This document shows positions 579-35,779 of a stretch of 35,779 bases of DNA, piece after piece. Source of the stretch: a virus; the IMG/VR virus record IMGVR_UViG_3300047300_000298, positions 1 to 35,779 of that record. One strand, given 5' to 3'. The stretch's first letter is position 1; each line of letters starts with the position of its first letter. The translations under genes and the position numbers were made by a program. Below the pieces are notes generated by a model. That model searched no databases. It had not been told where the DNA came from and saw only the letters and a program-made list of their open reading frames with translations.

Positions 579-1311
579 AAATCTCCCCTTGCGTCAGCAC
601 TCGCATTGCTCTTGCAGCCACTGCTGGAACCCATCCATTGCCAGTGGTTTTGAGTCCGTCCATCCCTCTGGCCACATCATCAGGATTTCTTGGCATCTTG
701 GCGTAGTCATCCGCTGATAAAGTCGCATCAATTGCTCTTGCAAATTGCCGTCTGCGTGATTCTTTCGGATCAACTTCAATGGGTTTCGGAAAGTCCAAGC
801 CTTCCAGCTCTGCGCTGTCGGTGTAAGCAACCATGTAAAACCGTGCTCTGTGATGCGCTGCTCCAACGGTTGACGCATAGAACACTCCCCATCTTGCATC
901 AAACCCCATTCCGGCCAAGTCTCCGAGAACTCTGCCAAGCCCCCTAGAAGTGAGCATTGGCGAGTTTTCCACAAGGACAATTCTCGGTCGAACTTCACGA
1001 ATGATTCTGGCCATTTCCACCCATAGTCCAGATCGCTCGCCATCCAATCCTGCCCCCCCCCCGCACTGGCTGATGTCTTGGCATGGGAATCCGCCTGTGA
1101 CAACATCGATTGATCCATTCCATGGTTTTCCATCAAAGGTTCTGACGTCATCCCAGACTGGGAATTGTTCGATGACTCCATCACGCATTCTGTCAAGCAT
1201 GATCTGACGCGCTCCGGAATCAACTTCAACAGCGCAGACGGTGCGCCATCCAAGCAGCTTTCCTGCCAAGACGCTGCCACCCCCTCCTGCAAATAATGCC
1301 AGCTCATTCAT
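559..1311 (-). CDS. DNA C5-cytosine methyltransferase (cassette A)
   Basis: This 250-residue protein should transfer a methyl group from S-adenosylmethionine to cytosine C5. Visible motifs are the cofactor loop LALFAGGGG (I, residues 4-12), the catalytic GGFPCQ with Cys77 (IV), ENSP at 115-118 (VI, where ENV is usual), HHRARFYMVA at 153-162 (VIII) and GNGWVPAVA from 224 (X). The stretch between VIII and X is short, so the target-recognition region is small. ATG 1311 is preferred over the upstream GTG 1317 because AAAGGTG sits just ahead of it. A G10 tract on the coding strand (1053-1062) encodes Gly84-86 just after motif IV, and the frame is intact here. No partner restriction gene is nearby, so this is an orphan phage enzyme, probably protecting against host restriction. 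Confidence 0.88.
   Translation of the reverse strand: MNELALFAGGGGSVLAGKLLGWRTVCAVEVDSGARQIMLDRMRDGVIEQFPVWDDVRTFDGKPWNGSIDVVTGGFPCQDISQCGGGAGLDGERSGLWVEMARIIREVRPRIVLVENSPMLTSRGLGRVLGDLAGMGFDARWGVFYASTVGAAHHRARFYMVAYTDSAELEGLDFPKPIEVDPKESRRRQFARAIDATLSADDYAKMPRNPDDVARGMDGLKTTGNGWVPAVAARAMRVLTQGEIYGNKTH
1053..1062 (-). repeat. G10 homopolymer tract inside the C5-methyltransferase gene
   Basis: Ten consecutive C on the + strand (G on the coding strand) encode glycines 84-86 immediately after the catalytic PCQ loop. The number of bases keeps the frame open. Tracts of this length are classical slipped-strand sites in phase-variable bacterial methyltransferase genes. A one-base change would truncate the enzyme after roughly 90 residues. 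Confidence 0.75.
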
Positions 1312-4139: not shown

Positions 4140-4531
4140 GCCTCGCCCTTGTACTGTTTGCGCAGTTCTGCCAGTTTTGCCAGCGCAGTCTGTTTGTTTC
4201 GCTCAATTTCGTCTTTTTCTCGTTGCGTCAGTTGTTTTTCAATGGCCACCACTGGTTTGCGTGGGATTTCAGGGCCAGCGTTGCACAGGTTCCTGAACTT
4301 GATCGCGCTAGGCACAAATTCGCCGTCTAGCTTTTCAATGGCGAAATCCATGCTTGGCCTGTAAGTCAGAAAAGTGCCAAGCTGCTTTTTCCATTCCTGC
4401 CGCACAAAGCCTGGGTCAATGCCGTCAAAGTGACGATTGAAAGTCGCTCCGAAGATGGCCATCATCCTGCCGAAGATGTAGTCCAGCCCTTGATCGGGTG
4501 TGCAGAAGTCAGTTTCCGAGTAGTTTGACAT
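4136..4531 (-). CDS. Phage replication protein P-like (helicase loader candidate)
   Basis: This 131-residue protein directly follows the replication initiator, as lambda P follows O. The sequence IFGRMMAIFGATFNRHF, then EWKKQLGTFLTY, then FVPSAIKFRNLCNAGP resembles the core of the lambda P family, where the final segment reads (L/P)PS..QF...C. It would bring the host DnaB helicase to the origin. The C-terminus is a charged helix (QREKDEIERNKQTALAKL). ATG 4531 is supported by GGAGG eight bases upstream, in preference to an in-frame ATG at 4555. The P assignment is moderate; the position supports it strongly. Confidence 0.65.
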   Translation of the reverse strand: MSNYSETDFCTPDQGLDYIFGRMMAIFGATFNRHFDGIDPGFVRQEWKKQLGTFLTYRPSMDFAIEKLDGEFVPSAIKFRNLCNAGPEIPRKPVVAIEKQLTQREKDEIERNKQTALAKLAELRKQYKGEA

Positions 4532-9509: not shown

Positions 9510-10057
9510 CCGAAGACGAGATGAAGCTGGACATGCTGGTGGCCGAGCTGGAATACGAGAACCGGCTTTTACGCGCACGAAACGAGCGATTGGTATCCGA
9601 GGCCCAGGCCACCAACTTTGAGCGCACAGCGGCCTGGCTGAAGGCTTGCGGGAAGGAGCAGCTCAACCCTGCGCACCTGTCCGTCCAGATCGGTGTGCAT
9701 TTCGAGGAAATGGTCGAGCTGCTGGAATGCATCGAGACCGACTGCGCCGAGGACACCAACTCGCTGGAATGCTTGTCGGACGACCTGCGCTTGATCGCCA
9801 CCAGCCTGAAAAAAGGCAGCACGCTGGCCTTCATCAAGACCGACAAGGAGGTGCACGCACTGGATGCCTTGTGCGACACCGAGGTGACCGGAAACGGCAT
9901 CGCCTACCTTGCGGGGTTTGACAAGAACGGAGCCGACCAGGAGGTGCTGGCCAGCAACGAGTCCAAGCAGGTGGACGGCAAGCCTGTCATCCTGCCAGGC
10001 GGAAAGATCGGCAAAGGCCCGAACTACCGTGCGCCAGAGCTGGAGAAGTTCGTGTGA
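9506..10057 (+). CDS. MazG/PRA-PH-like nucleotide pyrophosphohydrolase
   Basis: This is a 183-residue protein with an N-terminal coiled helix (about 5-40) and an all-alpha NTP-pyrophosphohydrolase domain. Metal ligands are expected at Glu67, Glu68 and Glu71 (HFEEMVELLE) and at Asp120 and Asp124 (HALDALCD). The closing signature TGNGIAYLAG, then GKIGKGPNYRAPEL is typical of phage members. These enzymes hydrolyse nucleoside triphosphates to monophosphates, and phage versions are thought to change dNTP or ppGpp pools; which substrate applies here cannot be told. Overlaps both neighbours. Confidence 0.82.
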   Translation: MTEDEMKLDMLVAELEYENRLLRARNERLVSEAQATNFERTAAWLKACGKEQLNPAHLSVQIGVHFEEMVELLECIETDCAEDTNSLECLSDDLRLIATSLKKGSTLAFIKTDKEVHALDALCDTEVTGNGIAYLAGFDKNGADQEVLASNESKQVDGKPVILPGGKIGKGPNYRAPELEKFV

Positions 10058-26944: not shown

Positions 26945-27111
26945 TTGCCTTTCTTCTTGGGTGCCTTGCTTGGCTTGCCTGCGGCCTTGGCTGCTTTCTC
27001 AGCCGTGCTGAGTGCAATGGCAACGGCCTGCTTCATTGGCTTGCCAGCCTTCTTTTCCATCTTGATGTTCTTGCCGATGGTCTTGCTTGAGTAACCTTTG
27101 GTCAATGGCAT
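26941..27111 (-). CDS. Small lysine-rich conserved phage protein
   Basis: This is a 56-residue protein starting MPLTKGYSSKTIGKNIKMEK with KPMKQAVAIALSTAEKAA after it and a poly-basic end. This small protein is very common among tailed phages, next to portal and coat genes, and its function is not known to me. AGGAGAAGG lies ahead of ATG 27111. The homing endonuclease gene upstream overlaps its first ten bases, so that element was inserted immediately before it. Confidence 0.78.
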   Translation of the reverse strand: MPLTKGYSSKTIGKNIKMEKKAGKPMKQAVAIALSTAEKAAKAAGKPSKAPKKKGK

Positions 27112-27848
27112 GGTGCCTTCTCCTGTTTTCGTTTCTCACGAGCCTGCTGCATTGCAGCCAGCCGTTTTTCCCTGATAACAGGGTCTTGCCACGAGCTTGC
27201 CGTCTTGCCTGCGATTTTCTGCTTTGTGCTGTCGTCGCGCAATGAGCGTTTACGAGCCTTTGCCGCAGCACTCATCTTGGCGCGAGTCTCTGGCGTTCTC
27301 TCATAGGCTGCAAGTTTTTGCTTGGTCACCTCTGGCATTGCATAACCAGAAGCCTTGCGTTCTTGCCATACGCGCTTTGATTGCTCCGATCGCTCAGCAC
27401 GCTTCTCGTCTGTCCATGTCGCCTTAAGTCCGTCAGAAACCTTTTTGCGGTAATCAGCGTCCTGCCAACGACGCGTCGAAGCGTCAACCCATGAGGAAAC
27501 GTCAGAGTATTTTCGGCCTGTTGCTTTTTCAGCAATCTTGGCTGCAACCTCTGGATTCTTTGATGGGGCAGTGTCACCACCGTAGGCGACGTTGTACCCT
27601 TGTGGAGCCAACGTGCCTAAAGCAATGATTGCTGCCTTCTCCGCTGCATGAAGTTGATCTTGTGTCTCAAACTCAGCAATCACCGAAATTTCAGGTTCGC
27701 CATATTTGCGCCACGCACAGTGCACAGGAAGCTGGCTGCCACTTTTGACAGACCGCTTGTGTTGTGCGATGCGGATGCTCATATTGCGTGCCGTTTGTCC
27801 GATGTATGCCTTGCCAGATGCAAAAACCAACTTGTACAGAATGTGCAT
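27102..27848 (-). CDS. GIY-YIG homing endonuclease
   Basis: This is a 248-residue free-standing homing endonuclease. The N-terminal GIY-YIG nuclease shows LYKLVFASGKAYIGQT (4-19), with Tyr15-Ile-Gly, Arg26, His30, Glu70 and Asn86 as expected active-site residues. The rest is basic and repetitive, with several NUMOD3-like motifs (TRAKMSAAAKARKR) that bind DNA. It sits between coat and tail genes, where it interrupts the virion operon without breaking any gene. Its RBS lies in a stable hairpin. It probably cuts phage DNA lacking it and spreads by recombination. Confidence 0.9.
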   Translation of the reverse strand: MHILYKLVFASGKAYIGQTARNMSIRIAQHKRSVKSGSQLPVHCAWRKYGEPEISVIAEFETQDQLHAAEKAAIIALGTLAPQGYNVAYGGDTAPSKNPEVAAKIAEKATGRKYSDVSSWVDASTRRWQDADYRKKVSDGLKATWTDEKRAERSEQSKRVWQERKASGYAMPEVTKQKLAAYERTPETRAKMSAAAKARKRSLRDDSTKQKIAGKTASSWQDPVIREKRLAAMQQAREKRKQEKAPCH

Positions 27849-32288: not shown

Positions 32289-33755
32289 TTACCACTTATT
32301 GACAATCGGGATTGGTTTGAAGGCCGCTGGCTTGGTGGCCGGTAGCTTTTGCACCAGGTTGATCGCGTCGAACATAGGGTCGAGCTGGTCGTCGTGAGCG
32401 CCAGCAGGGAAGGCCGCAACCTCGGCCAGGAAGTCTGAAAGCCAGGGCGCGTCCTGCGGAAGCACCACGTTGCCGGACTCGATGAACGGGGCCGCGTCGT
32501 GTGCCCGGCTGATCTTGTCCTTGTTGCGTTGCACCGGCACAACGGGGATGCCTTCGCGCCGCAGCGTCTGGATCAGGCCAGTGCCGGACACCTTGTCCTC
32601 GACGTACATGCCTCGCAGGGTCGCCGCCTGGTACGGTGGCCGCATGTCGTTCAGGTGCTTGAGCCAGAAGGCACGGGCGTGCACCAGCAGCTCTGGAGCC
32701 TCCCACTTGCCACGAATCTGGTCGATCTTGACAGCCTTGCCAACGGTCGAACGTGCCCAGCACTGCAGCACAGACCAGTCGTTCTGGGTGGCTGTTTTCT
32801 GGGCCGTGTCCACGGTGATGAAGCGGAAGTCCATCGCCGGGATGGATGACCAGTAGCCAAACCACTCGGTGCTGATGATGCCGCCGCCTCTGGGAGCTGG
32901 GCGCTGCTGGAGCTGGCCAGCCGTGCCGTAAGTGCCCAGGGTCTTTTCCAGTTCGGACACCTGCGCCTCACCAAAGCGCTCAGGGAACATCAGCTCGCCT
33001 TCCACGGTGCGCGGGTCAGTCCAGCCAATGCTGGTGGTGCAGCGGAACTCAGGCTCGAAGCGCATCGGGATGCACAGGTGCACGTAGGGCAGGCCCATTT
33101 CCAGAATCACGCCGCTGATGTCCTTCTCGTTCAGGCGTTGCATGATGACCACGATGGCCGACTTGTCGGAGTTGACGCGGGTCGGCAAGGTCTCGGTGAA
33201 GGCAATCCGGGCAGCTTCCAGCTTGGCCGCGCTGTTGGCGTTGTCAGCGCTGATCGGGTCGTCGAGGATAACCCGGTCGCCACGCACGCCGGTCATGCTG
33301 GTGAAGGCTCGGGCCTGGCGCACGCCTTTACGGGTATTCCCGAACTCTCGCTTGCCGTCCAGATCGGCCAGCAGGTCAAGCGGCCAGAGCTTCTGGAACC
33401 ACTCGGACTTGATCAGGTCGCGGCAGCGTCGGCTGTCTCGGATGGCCAGCTGCTCTTCGTGGGCCGTACCCACAAAGCGCATCTCAGGCATGCCTCGCGG
33501 CCCCCACTCCCAGGCTGGCCAGATCACGCCGGTCAGCAGGGACTTCATGGAGCCGGGTGGCACGTTCATCAGCAGGCGGTTGATTTCGCCCTTGGTCACG
33601 GCCTCCAGGTGCAGACAGATGGCGTCCAGCGCCCAGCCCCACTTCAGCTCGGCAGCCGGTTCGAGCACCTTCCAGGCACGCTTGGCAAACTCGGCCAAGC
33701 TGCGCCTGCACAGCTCACGCTCGACGGCCAGCAGGTCAGCTTGCGTCAGATGCAT
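32289..33755 (-). CDS. terL: Terminase large subunit
   Basis: This is a 488-residue packaging motor (P22 gp2 has 499). The ATPase domain has Walker A VPPGSMKS at 65-72, Walker B RVILDD at 161-166 and the coupling segment IMQRL at 204-208. The C-terminal RNase H-like nuclease has Asp316 (FITVDTA), Asp387 (YVEDKVSG) and Asp456/Asp459 (HDDQLD). ATG 33755 is preferred: it matches the copy at the left edge and overlaps the small terminase by 20 bases. The frame is open up to a GTG at 33833, inside that gene. Together with portal it packages DNA by a headful mechanism, as expected for P22-like phages. Confidence 0.94.
   Translation of the reverse strand: MHLTQADLLAVERELCRRSLAEFAKRAWKVLEPAAELKWGWALDAICLHLEAVTKGEINRLLMNVPPGSMKSLLTGVIWPAWEWGPRGMPEMRFVGTAHEEQLAIRDSRRCRDLIKSEWFQKLWPLDLLADLDGKREFGNTRKGVRQARAFTSMTGVRGDRVILDDPISADNANSAAKLEAARIAFTETLPTRVNSDKSAIVVIMQRLNEKDISGVILEMGLPYVHLCIPMRFEPEFRCTTSIGWTDPRTVEGELMFPERFGEAQVSELEKTLGTYGTAGQLQQRPAPRGGGIISTEWFGYWSSIPAMDFRFITVDTAQKTATQNDWSVLQCWARSTVGKAVKIDQIRGKWEAPELLVHARAFWLKHLNDMRPPYQAATLRGMYVEDKVSGTGLIQTLRREGIPVVPVQRNKDKISRAHDAAPFIESGNVVLPQDAPWLSDFLAEVAAFPAGAHDDQLDPMFDAINLVQKLPATKPAAFKPIPIVNKW
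33650..33740. repeat. Direct repeat with the left window end (1-91)
   Basis: This stretch is identical to 1-91 and marks where the common genome ends and the cassette-specific sequence begins on the terL side. Just past it, only the extreme 5' codons of terL and the last codons of terS differ between the two versions. Confidence 0.9.
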
Positions 33756-34224
33756 CTTTTGCGGCCATGATCTGCGCCAGCACCTCGGTGCCAAGTTGGG
33801 AAACGTCCAAGGTTGCGATGGCAATCGGTGCACCGTTGGCTCCGGTGTGCTCCAGCTGCCTTGGAGGTTCTTTCCAGCCCATCTGGCACTTTGACCACCA
33901 AATCTGTGCGGTCGTGTCGCCTGCCATGGCTTTCTGGAAGATTCCCTTTCCGATCTGAGCGTTGGCCTTGGCCTTGCCGTTTACCAGCTCGGTGGGGAAC
34001 TTCTCGCGCAGCGTGTCCACATGGATGCCGTCACGAATCAGGGCAGCAATTTGCTCAAACGGCACGCCGTAGCCAGACATGGCCTCCACCTGCTTTCGCT
34101 CGGCATCGGTTGGCTCAAAGGGTTTGCGGCCAGCGCCAGGACGTGCGCCGCCGTAGTTTTTGGAGTGAGTTGCCTCTTTTTTAGGCACTCGGGTCGAATT
34201 TTCAGGATTTGGCTTCTTTGCCAT
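33736..34224 (-). CDS. terS: Terminase small subunit, alternative type (cassette B)
   Basis: This is a 162-residue protein. A basic N-terminus with GGARPGAGRKPFEPTD and a helical DNA-binding part (ERKQVEAMSGYGVPFEQIAA) is followed by FQKAMAGDTTAQIWWSKCQM and a short tail. It is unlike the cassette A protein except for the last 25 or so residues (LGTEVLAQIMAAKDA). It should recognise a different packaging site, or the same site by a different fold, while feeding the same large terminase. It overlaps the methyltransferase by 23 bases and terL by 20. Position gives the function. Confidence 0.8.
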   Translation of the reverse strand: MAKKPNPENSTRVPKKEATHSKNYGGARPGAGRKPFEPTDAERKQVEAMSGYGVPFEQIAALIRDGIHVDTLREKFPTELVNGKAKANAQIGKGIFQKAMAGDTTAQIWWSKCQMGWKEPPRQLEHTGANGAPIAIATLDVSQLGTEVLAQIMAAKDASDAS

Positions 34225-35266
34225 TTGTAACCTCCGCGAAAGGTTCGCCAGTTTCTGCGTGAGTTGCTATTTTGCCAGTGAAGTCCTGCCAGCGTCTCAC
34301 AATCACATCACAATACTTCGGATCGAGCTCCATGATGCGTGCGACGCGGCCATTCTTCTCGGCTGCGATCAGGGTGGTGCCGGAGCCGCCGAAGCTGTCC
34401 AGAACTTGGTCGCCACCTTTGGTGTTGTTCAGGAGCTGGTACTCGAACAGGGCCACGGGCTTCATGGTCGGGTGCTCACCGTTGCGGGATGGCTTCTCGA
34501 ACTCGAGGATGGTCGTTTGCTTGCGGTCGGCTGCCCACAGGTGGCTGGCTCCTTCCTTCCATCCGTACAGGCATGGCTCGTGCTTCCAGTGGTAGTCCTG
34601 GCGGCCCATGACCATGCTGGATTTCTTCCAGATCAGGCACTGGCGGACTTTCCAGCCTGCGTCCTGGGCTGCGCCTCGGAAGTTGTAGCCCTCGGAGTCT
34701 GCGTGCCAGATGTAAAACACAGCGCCTGGCTTCATCACCATGTCGGCTGCCGTGTAAGCATCGCGCAAGAATTGACGGAATTGGTCGTCGCCCATCTCGT
34801 CGTTCTTGATCTTGAGCGCGTCCTTGGTCTTGCCTTCGTAGGCCACGTTGTAGGGCGGGTCGGTCAGCCACATGTCGACCAGCTGGCCTTCGGTGAGCTT
34901 TTCCAGGTCGCTGACGCTGGTGCTGTCTCCACACAGGAGGCGGTGCTTTCCCATCACCCAAATGTCACCTGGCCGGGTGCGCGGGTTCTCGGGCAGCGGT
35001 GGGGCGTCGTCCGGGTCGGTCAGGCCTTCCGTTCCGACTGGTGCCAGCAGCTCCTTTATCTCATCCAGGTCGAAGCCAGTCAGTTCGAGATCAAAGCCAA
35101 GCTCCTGCAGGTCGGCAAACTCAACCTTCAGCATTTCCATGTCCCAGCCTGAATTCAGCGCCAGCCGATTGTCGGCAATAACGTAGGCGCGTTTTTGAGC
35201 GTCGGTCAGGTGCTCCAGCCGGATGCATGGAACCTCGCTCAGTCCCAGCTTGCGTGCGGCCAGCAC
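34202..35266 (-). CDS. DNA adenine/N4-cytosine methyltransferase domain (cassette B), downstream part of frameshifted gene
   Basis: This open part (354 codons) holds the C-terminal end of a ParB-like domain (LTDAQKRAYVIADNRLAL) and a beta-class amino methyltransferase. Motif IV TDPPYN is at about 135-140, HPTMKP at 265-270 and the cofactor motif LDSFGGSGTT at 289-298. It has no natural start: the apparent GTG 35266 is a valine inside GRVLAARKLG. The true start is ATG 35445; one G is missing from a G-run at 35289-35296. With that base the gene would encode 414 residues. It probably modifies phage DNA against host restriction when in frame. As read here, the enzyme is off. Confidence 0.85.
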   Translation of the reverse strand: MLAARKLGLSEVPCIRLEHLTDAQKRAYVIADNRLALNSGWDMEMLKVEFADLQELGFDLELTGFDLDEIKELLAPVGTEGLTDPDDAPPLPENPRTRPGDIWVMGKHRLLCGDSTSVSDLEKLTEGQLVDMWLTDPPYNVAYEGKTKDALKIKNDEMGDDQFRQFLRDAYTAADMVMKPGAVFYIWHADSEGYNFRGAAQDAGWKVRQCLIWKKSSMVMGRQDYHWKHEPCLYGWKEGASHLWAADRKQTTILEFEKPSRNGEHPTMKPVALFEYQLLNNTKGGDQVLDSFGGSGTTLIAAEKNGRVARIMELDPKYCDVIVRRWQDFTGKIATHAETGEPFAEVTNGKEAKS

Positions 35267-35445
35267 TCGGCCATGTCCGGCAATGATGCCCCCCCCGCGT
35301 CAATCAGCACCGGATTGGTGAATCCGAATTCCTGGATGGATGCAGCGATCTGGGCCACCTGCGCGTCGCTATGTGTCCGGCTGTTGCGTGCATAGGGTAT
35401 GAGCGCATCGATCTGGATGGTCTCAAGCGTGTCTGGTAGTTTCAT
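35239..35445 (-). CDS. ParB-like N-terminal part of the cassette B methyltransferase (frameshifted)
   Basis: This is a 68-codon open frame: a ParB/Srx-like domain start (MKLPDTLETIQIDALIPYAR, then DAQVAQIAASIQEFGFTNPV) that runs to LIDAGG and then goes out of frame, ending in ASLPDMAECWPHASWD. With one additional G the frame continues GGIIAGHGRVLAARKLGL, the standard ParB motif, into the methyltransferase. It starts in ATGA overlap with the rusA copy. ParB-methyltransferase fusions are common in phages. Confidence 0.85.
   Translation of the reverse strand: MKLPDTLETIQIDALIPYARNSRTHSDAQVAQIAASIQEFGFTNPVLIDAGGASLPDMAECWPHASWD
35289..35296 (-). repeat. G8 homopolymer tract causing the methyltransferase frameshift
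   Basis: Eight C on the + strand (G on the coding strand) lie just after codons for LIDA. Nine G would give GGG before IIAGHGR and join the ParB and methyltransferase parts. A tract of eight or nine G is prone to slipped-strand change during replication, so the gene may switch on and off. Confidence 0.8.
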
Positions 35446-35779
35446 TCTGTGGGCCTTTCGATGTGAACTTCAACGAATCCACCAACGGACTCGCCTTTTT
35501 TGATTGTGAGCGTCCAGTGCTTGTCGTCCACCTTGAGCACGTCGGCCAGGCCATCGAGGCCAGCTTTGATGCGTGCCAGGGCGTTGTCCAGGTCATAGGC
35601 GCGACGGGTCGGTGGGTAGAACGTGAGCGTCAGGTGCAGGCTGGCCGCCTGAATGGGGCGTGCGCCTTGCTCCATGGCCTGCCAAAAACAGGCCTCGCGG
35701 TAGGCTTTTTTCAGCTTGGCCAGCTTTGCCCAGTGGTTTCTGGCGTTCGGGCTAAGGCCAGTGGGTGGCCAGGGAAGCT
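35442..35779 (-). CDS. rusA: RusA Holliday junction resolvase, 5'-truncated by window end (cassette B side)
   Basis: This is a second copy of rusA lacking the first four or so codons because the window stops. From position 35491 on it is nearly identical to the gene at 1860-2198, including YDLDNALARIKAGLDG and the later DD. The C-terminus differs (ESVGGFVEVHIERPTE). The stop overlaps ATG 35445 of the ParB-methyltransferase. In a circular molecule it is the same locus as the first copy. Confidence 0.88.
   Translation of the reverse strand, partial: LPWPPTGLSPNARNHWAKLAKLKKAYREACFWQAMEQGARPIQAASLHLTLTFYPPTRRAYDLDNALARIKAGLDGLADVLKVDDKHWTLTIKKGESVGGFVEVHIERPTE
35491..35779. repeat. Direct repeat with 1900-2188 (rusA)
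   Basis: This stretch aligns without gaps to 1900-2188 with about five substitutions, all before 35653. The last 127 bases are identical and end with the window. The period is 33,591 bp. Confidence 0.9.

Follow-up and report, generated by a model that had tools for sequence, protein, structure and literature searches.

Phase-variable Type III mod genes form the phasevarions of Neisseria, Haemophilus, and Helicobacter. The Type IIG methyltransferases of Campylobacter jejuni are phase-variable through poly-G tracts (PMC4889913). The phage locus described here resembles these bacterial systems in that a simple repeat lies in the reading frame, the gain or loss of a unit shifts the frame, and the ON and OFF states are distributed at random. 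Unlike them, it is phage-borne and encodes a C5-cytosine methyltransferase that is an orphan as judged from its gene neighbours, its tract is part of the catalytic loop, and a second ORF overlaps its frame. A phage-borne phase-variable methyltransferase is absent from the available passages of a 2026 review (PMC13076061). Nothing on point was found in the literature search for phage-borne poly-G methyltransferases or for an overlapping methyltransferase frame, which is weak evidence because most journals were not covered.

Within the gene for the large polypeptide of M.EcoHK31I, a different frame encodes the small one. According to Lee et al. 1995, cited in PMC3404938, motifs I-VIII and X of M.EcoHK31I (YGGCCR) are on the large polypeptide and motif IX is on the smaller one; PMC3404938 also places the predicted TRD on the large subunit and describes M.AquI as two polypeptides forming one C5 enzyme. 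The two phage ORFs, called alpha and beta below, are like M.EcoHK31I in that a putative motif IX is apart from the chain holding motifs I-VIII and X, and like M.AquI in the putative two-polypeptide make-up of the C5 enzyme. In M.AquI, however, the small subunit holds motifs IX and X, while motif X stays in alpha in the phage pair. Moreover, M.EcoHK31I is one restriction-modification system, whereas the alpha/beta layout is spread across phage genomes. The second ORF of the phages covers nearly the whole gene, unlike that of M.EcoHK31I, and some of the phage members have a poly-G tract. Both kinds of system, the poly-G contingency locus and the split C5 methyltransferase, are known, and they are probably combined in these phages. 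I consider it probable that the tract is a phase-variation site in a phage orphan C5 methyltransferase which is dual-coding with an M.EcoHK31I-like layout; that the tract slips in the population, that alpha and beta act together, and what the switch is for are inferences.

The G10 tract and the two cassettes

The DNA analyzed here, called the window, is a virus record (G000) with a length of 35,779 bases. The genes, motifs, and tracts of its two cassettes and their flanks are all on the minus strand. A run of ten C residues on the plus strand at positions 1053-1062, which is a G10 tract on the coding strand, is the sole run of this length in the window, as the original prediction had it. The second-longest G or C run is a C8 at 35289-35296, and no further G or C run of six or more exists in the window. 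In dinucleotide shuffles, a G10 is expected 0.01 times per window by chance; the expectation for a G8 is 0.75 (overlapping matches counted), so that the G8 alone is not significant.

The G10 tract lies in an intact ORF (alpha, 559-1311) encoding a C5-cytosine methyltransferase (PF00145, E = 4.6e-29; phrog_363) with motifs I, IV, VI, VIII, and X. Motifs I, IV (the catalytic PCQ, 1078-1086), VI (ENx), and VIII are all within this single frame, and the sequence GNGWVP at 625-642 is motif X. The ORF finder placed the start at a GTG (1317), but the ATG at 1311, which has AAAGG upstream, is the likelier start codon. In the loop after PCQDIS, the tract codons GGG GGG GGG GCA stand directly behind PCQDISQC and in frame with the ORF, encoding Gly86-Gly88 and providing the first base of Ala89 (numbering from GTG 1317). 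Thus, the codons and the PF00145 match bear out the earlier statement that the tract encodes glycines right after the PCQ of a C5 methyltransferase.

The ends of the window overlap: positions 1-140 match 33650-33783 at 90.7% identity, and 1881-2188 match 35472-35779 at 96.4%. The common flanks, RusA (1860-2198, flanking the left cassette; phrog_34; second allele at 35442-35779, 96.4% to 35472-35779) and TerL (32289-33833; phrog_38), enclose two differing cassettes at the opposite ends of the window. The left-end cassette is composed of an Sf6-type TerS gene (93-578; PF20901, 6.8e-25), the C5 methyltransferase gene, and an adjoining gene for a NUMOD4/HNH endonuclease (1321-1863; profile matches). 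The right-end cassette is composed of a gene for a different TerS protein (33736-34224; profile match and alignment) and a gene for a ParB-N6-adenine methyltransferase (34202-35445; PF01555, 6.8e-24; phrog_498, 2.7e-152). The latter frame is broken at the G8 tract in its ParB-like part, one base below the in-frame length, and the downstream ORF spans 34202-35266. Relatives carry only one cassette, that of the C5 enzyme in L002-L005 and L007 and that of the N6 enzyme in L158, L160, and L161. The simplest inference is that a mixed population was assembled into one over-closed circular contig, in which alternative cassette alleles were joined. In that case, the ON state of one cassette and the OFF state of the other would come from two different genomes. 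It had been proposed that one methyltransferase is ON and the other OFF; this holds for the reading frames, which are intact in the C5 gene and shifted in the ParB-N6 gene, but not as a reciprocal switch within one virion.

No restriction enzyme family was found among the neighbours of the C5 gene (TerS, the homing-type NUMOD4/HNH endonuclease, and RusA). By this neighbour test, which rests on sequence alone, the C5 methyltransferase is not part of a restriction-modification system and is an orphan. Upstream of the C5 cassette, L003 (913-965) and L004 (3354-3406) have a short match to window positions 35394-35446, the start of the ParB-methyltransferase gene; the match may be left over from the other cassette. 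Another homing endonuclease gene of the window (27102-27848; phrog_314, GIY-YIG-like by eye) lies immediately downstream of the gene for the major head protein.

The overlapping frame and the likely split C5 layout

It was found that a second ORF (beta, 594-1307, 237 aa) overlaps alpha in the +1 frame, a feature missing from the original prediction. Behind AAAGG, the sequence ATGAATG (1305-1311) holds both start codons, that of alpha at 1311 and that of beta 4 nt later at 1307, and beta ends 35 nt before the alpha stop codon. Across the C5 family, this +4 start is found more often than any other arrangement. Is the second frame maintained by selection? The expected numbers of stop codons were obtained by shuffling the synonymous codons of frame 0. 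In the tract-bearing genes, the +1 frame has 13 stops against 112 expected in the N-terminal half and 11 against 255 in the C-terminal half, while the +2 frame is undepleted. Tract-free genes are likewise depleted in +1 stops (2 against 22 and 1 against 49), and so are the C-terminal halves of an unbiased gene set in the alternative frame (2 against 105 and 42 against 198). As a control, 124 further genes from the same contigs have 1518 stops against 1580 expected and are undepleted. The differences in the C-terminal half fall on third codon positions in 38-40% and on first positions in 34-42%, compared with 61-78% on third positions in the control genes (TerL, portal, and N6). Wobble conservation is highest over VENSPMLTSRGLGRVLGDLA and GRVADGVAARVDRLKAIGNG; the N-terminal half of beta is open yet barely conserved in sequence. 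The beta of the window matches phrog_1008 (1.9e-12), and beta homologues exist in isolated phages of Vibrio, Salmonella, Pseudomonas, Stenotrophomonas, and Porphyromonas. The beta frame is under selection and is conserved in the family.

A beta start inside the gene, immediately after the tract, which would then serve as a ribosome-binding site, was considered and rejected, since the alternative-frame start codons are varied and often TTG, and since the stop depletion upstream favours the +4 start in the subfamily of the window. In other subfamilies, an internal beta start is likely (91 stops against 116).

The second conserved ORF has consequences for the annotation, expression, and assay of such phage genes. 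Each of the seven phage records examined annotates one frame or the other, never both. MG592600 (L426) and PP083311 (L548) have only the beta frame annotated, as a 'hypothetical protein', and PP079418 (L547) has the beta frame annotated as a 'DNA-cytosine methyltransferase'; alpha was missed in all three. Other records have alpha annotated. The phrog_1008 entry ('DNA methyltransferase', 329 positions) is matched by beta but is silent on the overlap with a C5 methyltransferase in another frame.

When alpha was compared with single-chain C5 methyltransferases, the hhalign alignment spanned motifs I-VIII only (2.5e-28). Motif IX was not found in the alpha chain, given that the alignment ends at motif VIII and that the motif-IX pattern occurs in frame 0 in only one of the 88 unbiased genes, as against 56 of the 88 in the alternative frame. 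The C-terminus of beta, LNPxWVEWLMGWPxGWTD, was placed on motif IX by hhalign, although the match is weak (P = 0.016). In the window, this motif-IX-like element is TTPRCQEILMMWPEGWTD at 654-707, identified by the pattern and by the weak alignment falling exactly on motif IX. Considering the lack of motif IX in alpha, the motif-IX-like element in beta, and the division known from M.EcoHK31I, alpha and beta likely constitute a split C5 methyltransferase; their joint activity is inferred, without protein assays. The AlphaFold model of beta alone is of low confidence (pLDDT 47.5). A beta that is predicted to be unfolded by itself would fit a subunit, yet this shows nothing. A PDB profile search with beta yielded a single, irrelevant-looking match (3nng, E = 0.004).

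Tract lengths and reading frames in the family

Among the closest C5 relatives, L002, L003, and L005 have a G10 tract, L007 and L008 have a G9 tract and are out of frame, and L004 has an interrupted tract, GGGGTGGGT. The tract of the N6 gene is G8 in the window (OFF), G13 in L160 (OFF), G14 in L161 (ON), and G10 in L175 (OFF), and it is interrupted in L158 (ON). Absence of the tract from close homologues was one part of the condition for refuting the original prediction; tracts of differing lengths are present for both cassettes.

The IMG/VR collection was scanned for runs of eight or more G residues located 4-24 nt after PCQD. At least 120 stretches were obtained, and among the matches listed, most are C5 methyltransferases like that of the window, with G8-G17 tracts. 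Since these loci were selected by their tracts, the length distribution below eight is meaningless. I therefore refer to an independent, unbiased sample of 109 phage C5 methyltransferases collected via GGFPCQDI. Behind PCQD, the maximum length of a G run is 2-6 in 105 of these genes and 9-15 in four, and lengths of 7-8 do not occur. This bimodality indicates that the long tracts are a separate class rather than the tail of a distribution. Thus, about 4% of the C5 family has a long tract and about 96% lacks one. In the isolated phages examined, the tract was absent from the six sites that were read, and one site was not scored. A tract scan of Genome_contigs gave 75 matches, about nine of which are apparently real C5 methyltransferases.

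Among the matches listed, there are 93 distinct tract-bearing genes, of which 72 are in frame and 21 are out of frame; 14 of the latter are one base short, and seven are two bases short or one base over. In the unbiased set, the frame continues past the tract site in the 105 genes without a tract, as judged by eye. Again among the matches listed, the spacing from PCQ to SGLW in the in-frame genes is 18 residues in 66, a natural 19 in three, and the same length by eye in the remaining three, which the regular expression did not score. These residue counts are equal to those of the tract-free genes. Relative to the canonical loop length, the OFF genes are at -1 in 13 cases and at +1 in five, and no in-frame loop variant of plus or minus 3 was found among the tract-bearing genes listed. 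The differences in tract length between in-frame genes arise from adjacent codons becoming Gly codons (GGGAG to GGGGG), not from longer loops.

The distribution of these states was examined on a tree of 199 methyltransferases by comparing the number of changes with that for shuffled labels. The ON/OFF state requires 17 changes against 17.4 for shuffled labels and has no phylogenetic signal. The OFF genes are scattered rather than inherited by clades, which speaks against decayed lineages and would fit reversible switching. The presence of the tract requires at least 34 changes against 65 for shuffled labels.

Probable phase variation and other explanations

If the tract is a phase-variation site, slipped-strand mispairing during replication would add or remove one G. 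A tract of canonical length would leave the catalytic loop PCQDIS-x-x-GGGxG intact, and the enzyme would be made; one base off, the N-terminal half with motifs I-IV would be severed from the C-terminal half with motifs VI-X, and the enzyme would be off. Since the alpha and beta frames overlap at the tract, a single slip would disrupt both. On the loss of one G, the N-terminal half of alpha would join the beta frame and that of beta would enter the closed frame; on the gain of one G, the converse would occur, and alpha would be broken in both cases. A mixed population would comprise methylated and unmethylated phage genomes, most likely as bet-hedging against hosts that restrict either unmethylated or methylated DNA, a purpose which is inferred. 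Phase-variable methyltransferases are known from bacteria; what is probably the same device is found repeatedly in phages here, at a single site of a single enzyme family and in over a hundred contigs. This suggests a hedging by phages of the methylation of their own DNA against hosts that differ in which DNA they restrict.

Could the OFF lengths be homopolymer errors of assembly or sequencing, the tract being merely a GC-rich stretch of glycine codons? The absence of phylogenetic signal in the ON/OFF state is equally expected from errors, there are no read data, and some of the OFF calls could indeed be assembly errors, which are not excludable for single contigs. As an explanation of the whole pattern, however, this seems unlikely. 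Near-identical contigs from different metagenomes (L117/L147, L123/L152, and L121/L145) share the same tract length, including OFF lengths, which argues against random assembly error and also implies that switching is not fast enough to blur every sample. Forming the tract requires the replacement of a Lys by Gly and the exclusive use of GGG, which accounts for only 18-20% of Gly codons, and motif I (FAGAGGG), which is equally rich in Gly, gave four matches in the same collection against at least 120 for the post-PCQ site. With the bimodal run lengths and the shuffles, these observations rule out chance GGG codon use as the origin of the tract. A genome pair otherwise identical and differing only in tract length was sought and not found; the closest ON/OFF pairs of C5 genes have about 94-96% nucleotide identity. 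A candidate pair of 11 and 10 G residues, L087 and L121/L145, actually differs by a G/A substitution at the tract end and does not represent slippage. That the OFF genes are ordinary pseudogenes being lost is very hard to believe: some phage methyltransferases may be dispensable, and 21 of the 93 genes among the matches listed are out of frame, but the OFF genes are mostly one base off at the tract and stand beside ON relatives on the tree, and their C-terminal halves, once the frame is restored, are open as long as those of ON genes (median 196 residues versus 180).

It is also conceivable that the tract is a programmed site of transcriptional or translational slippage, which would supply alpha and a fusion of the alpha N-terminal half with the beta C-terminal half in a fixed ratio from one gene. 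At the tract loci, the loss of one G leads into the conserved beta frame, which matches the methyltransferase frame in open length, while the remaining frame meets a stop within about 14-60 codons. Nevertheless, most family members retain both frames without a tract, beta has its own start codon 4 nt behind that of alpha, and +1 alleles exist too. The tract length and the frame vary between relatives, which would be intolerable for a programmed site, and I regard this possibility as doubtful. The identity of the one-G-loss frame with the beta frame further raises the idea that the -1 phase yields a defined fusion of the catalytic N-terminal half of alpha and the C-terminal half of beta with a function of its own, so that a slip would swap viral proteins; this is a speculation to which I attach little weight.

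Returning to the phase-variation site, IMG/VR was also scanned for runs of 14 or more G residues with open frames of at least 80 codons on both sides. Five of the eight internal coding-strand tracts (L042, L430, L441, L487, and L489) were found in DNA methyltransferases, which were identified by eye from their motifs. An enrichment of homopolymers in methyltransferases, which had been proposed as a check, is thus seen, albeit in a small sample. Together with the length variation in close homologues, the 21 of 93 OFF genes among the matches listed, and the random scatter on the tree, it supports the switchability that had been claimed for the locus.

In L430, L441, and L487, the G14-G15 tract lies at another site of the C5 methyltransferase gene, directly after motif VIII. 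A tract of nine or more G residues was also found in motif I (FAGxGGG) of C5 methyltransferases in L009, L247, L313, L340, and L553-L556, which is rare compared with the post-PCQ site. At least three loci have a G9 just before DPPY, the allowed gap having been too short for L042, L220, and L230. L021 has tracts of G10, G10, and G8 at 4250, 4507, and 4729, in or near a single C5 methyltransferase gene. L042 (IMGVR_UViG_3300034106_000103) has a G15 after PCQ in a C5 gene at 6688 and a G10 just before DPPY in a ParB-N6 gene at 9739; the two genes, 3 kb apart on one contig, are both in frame.
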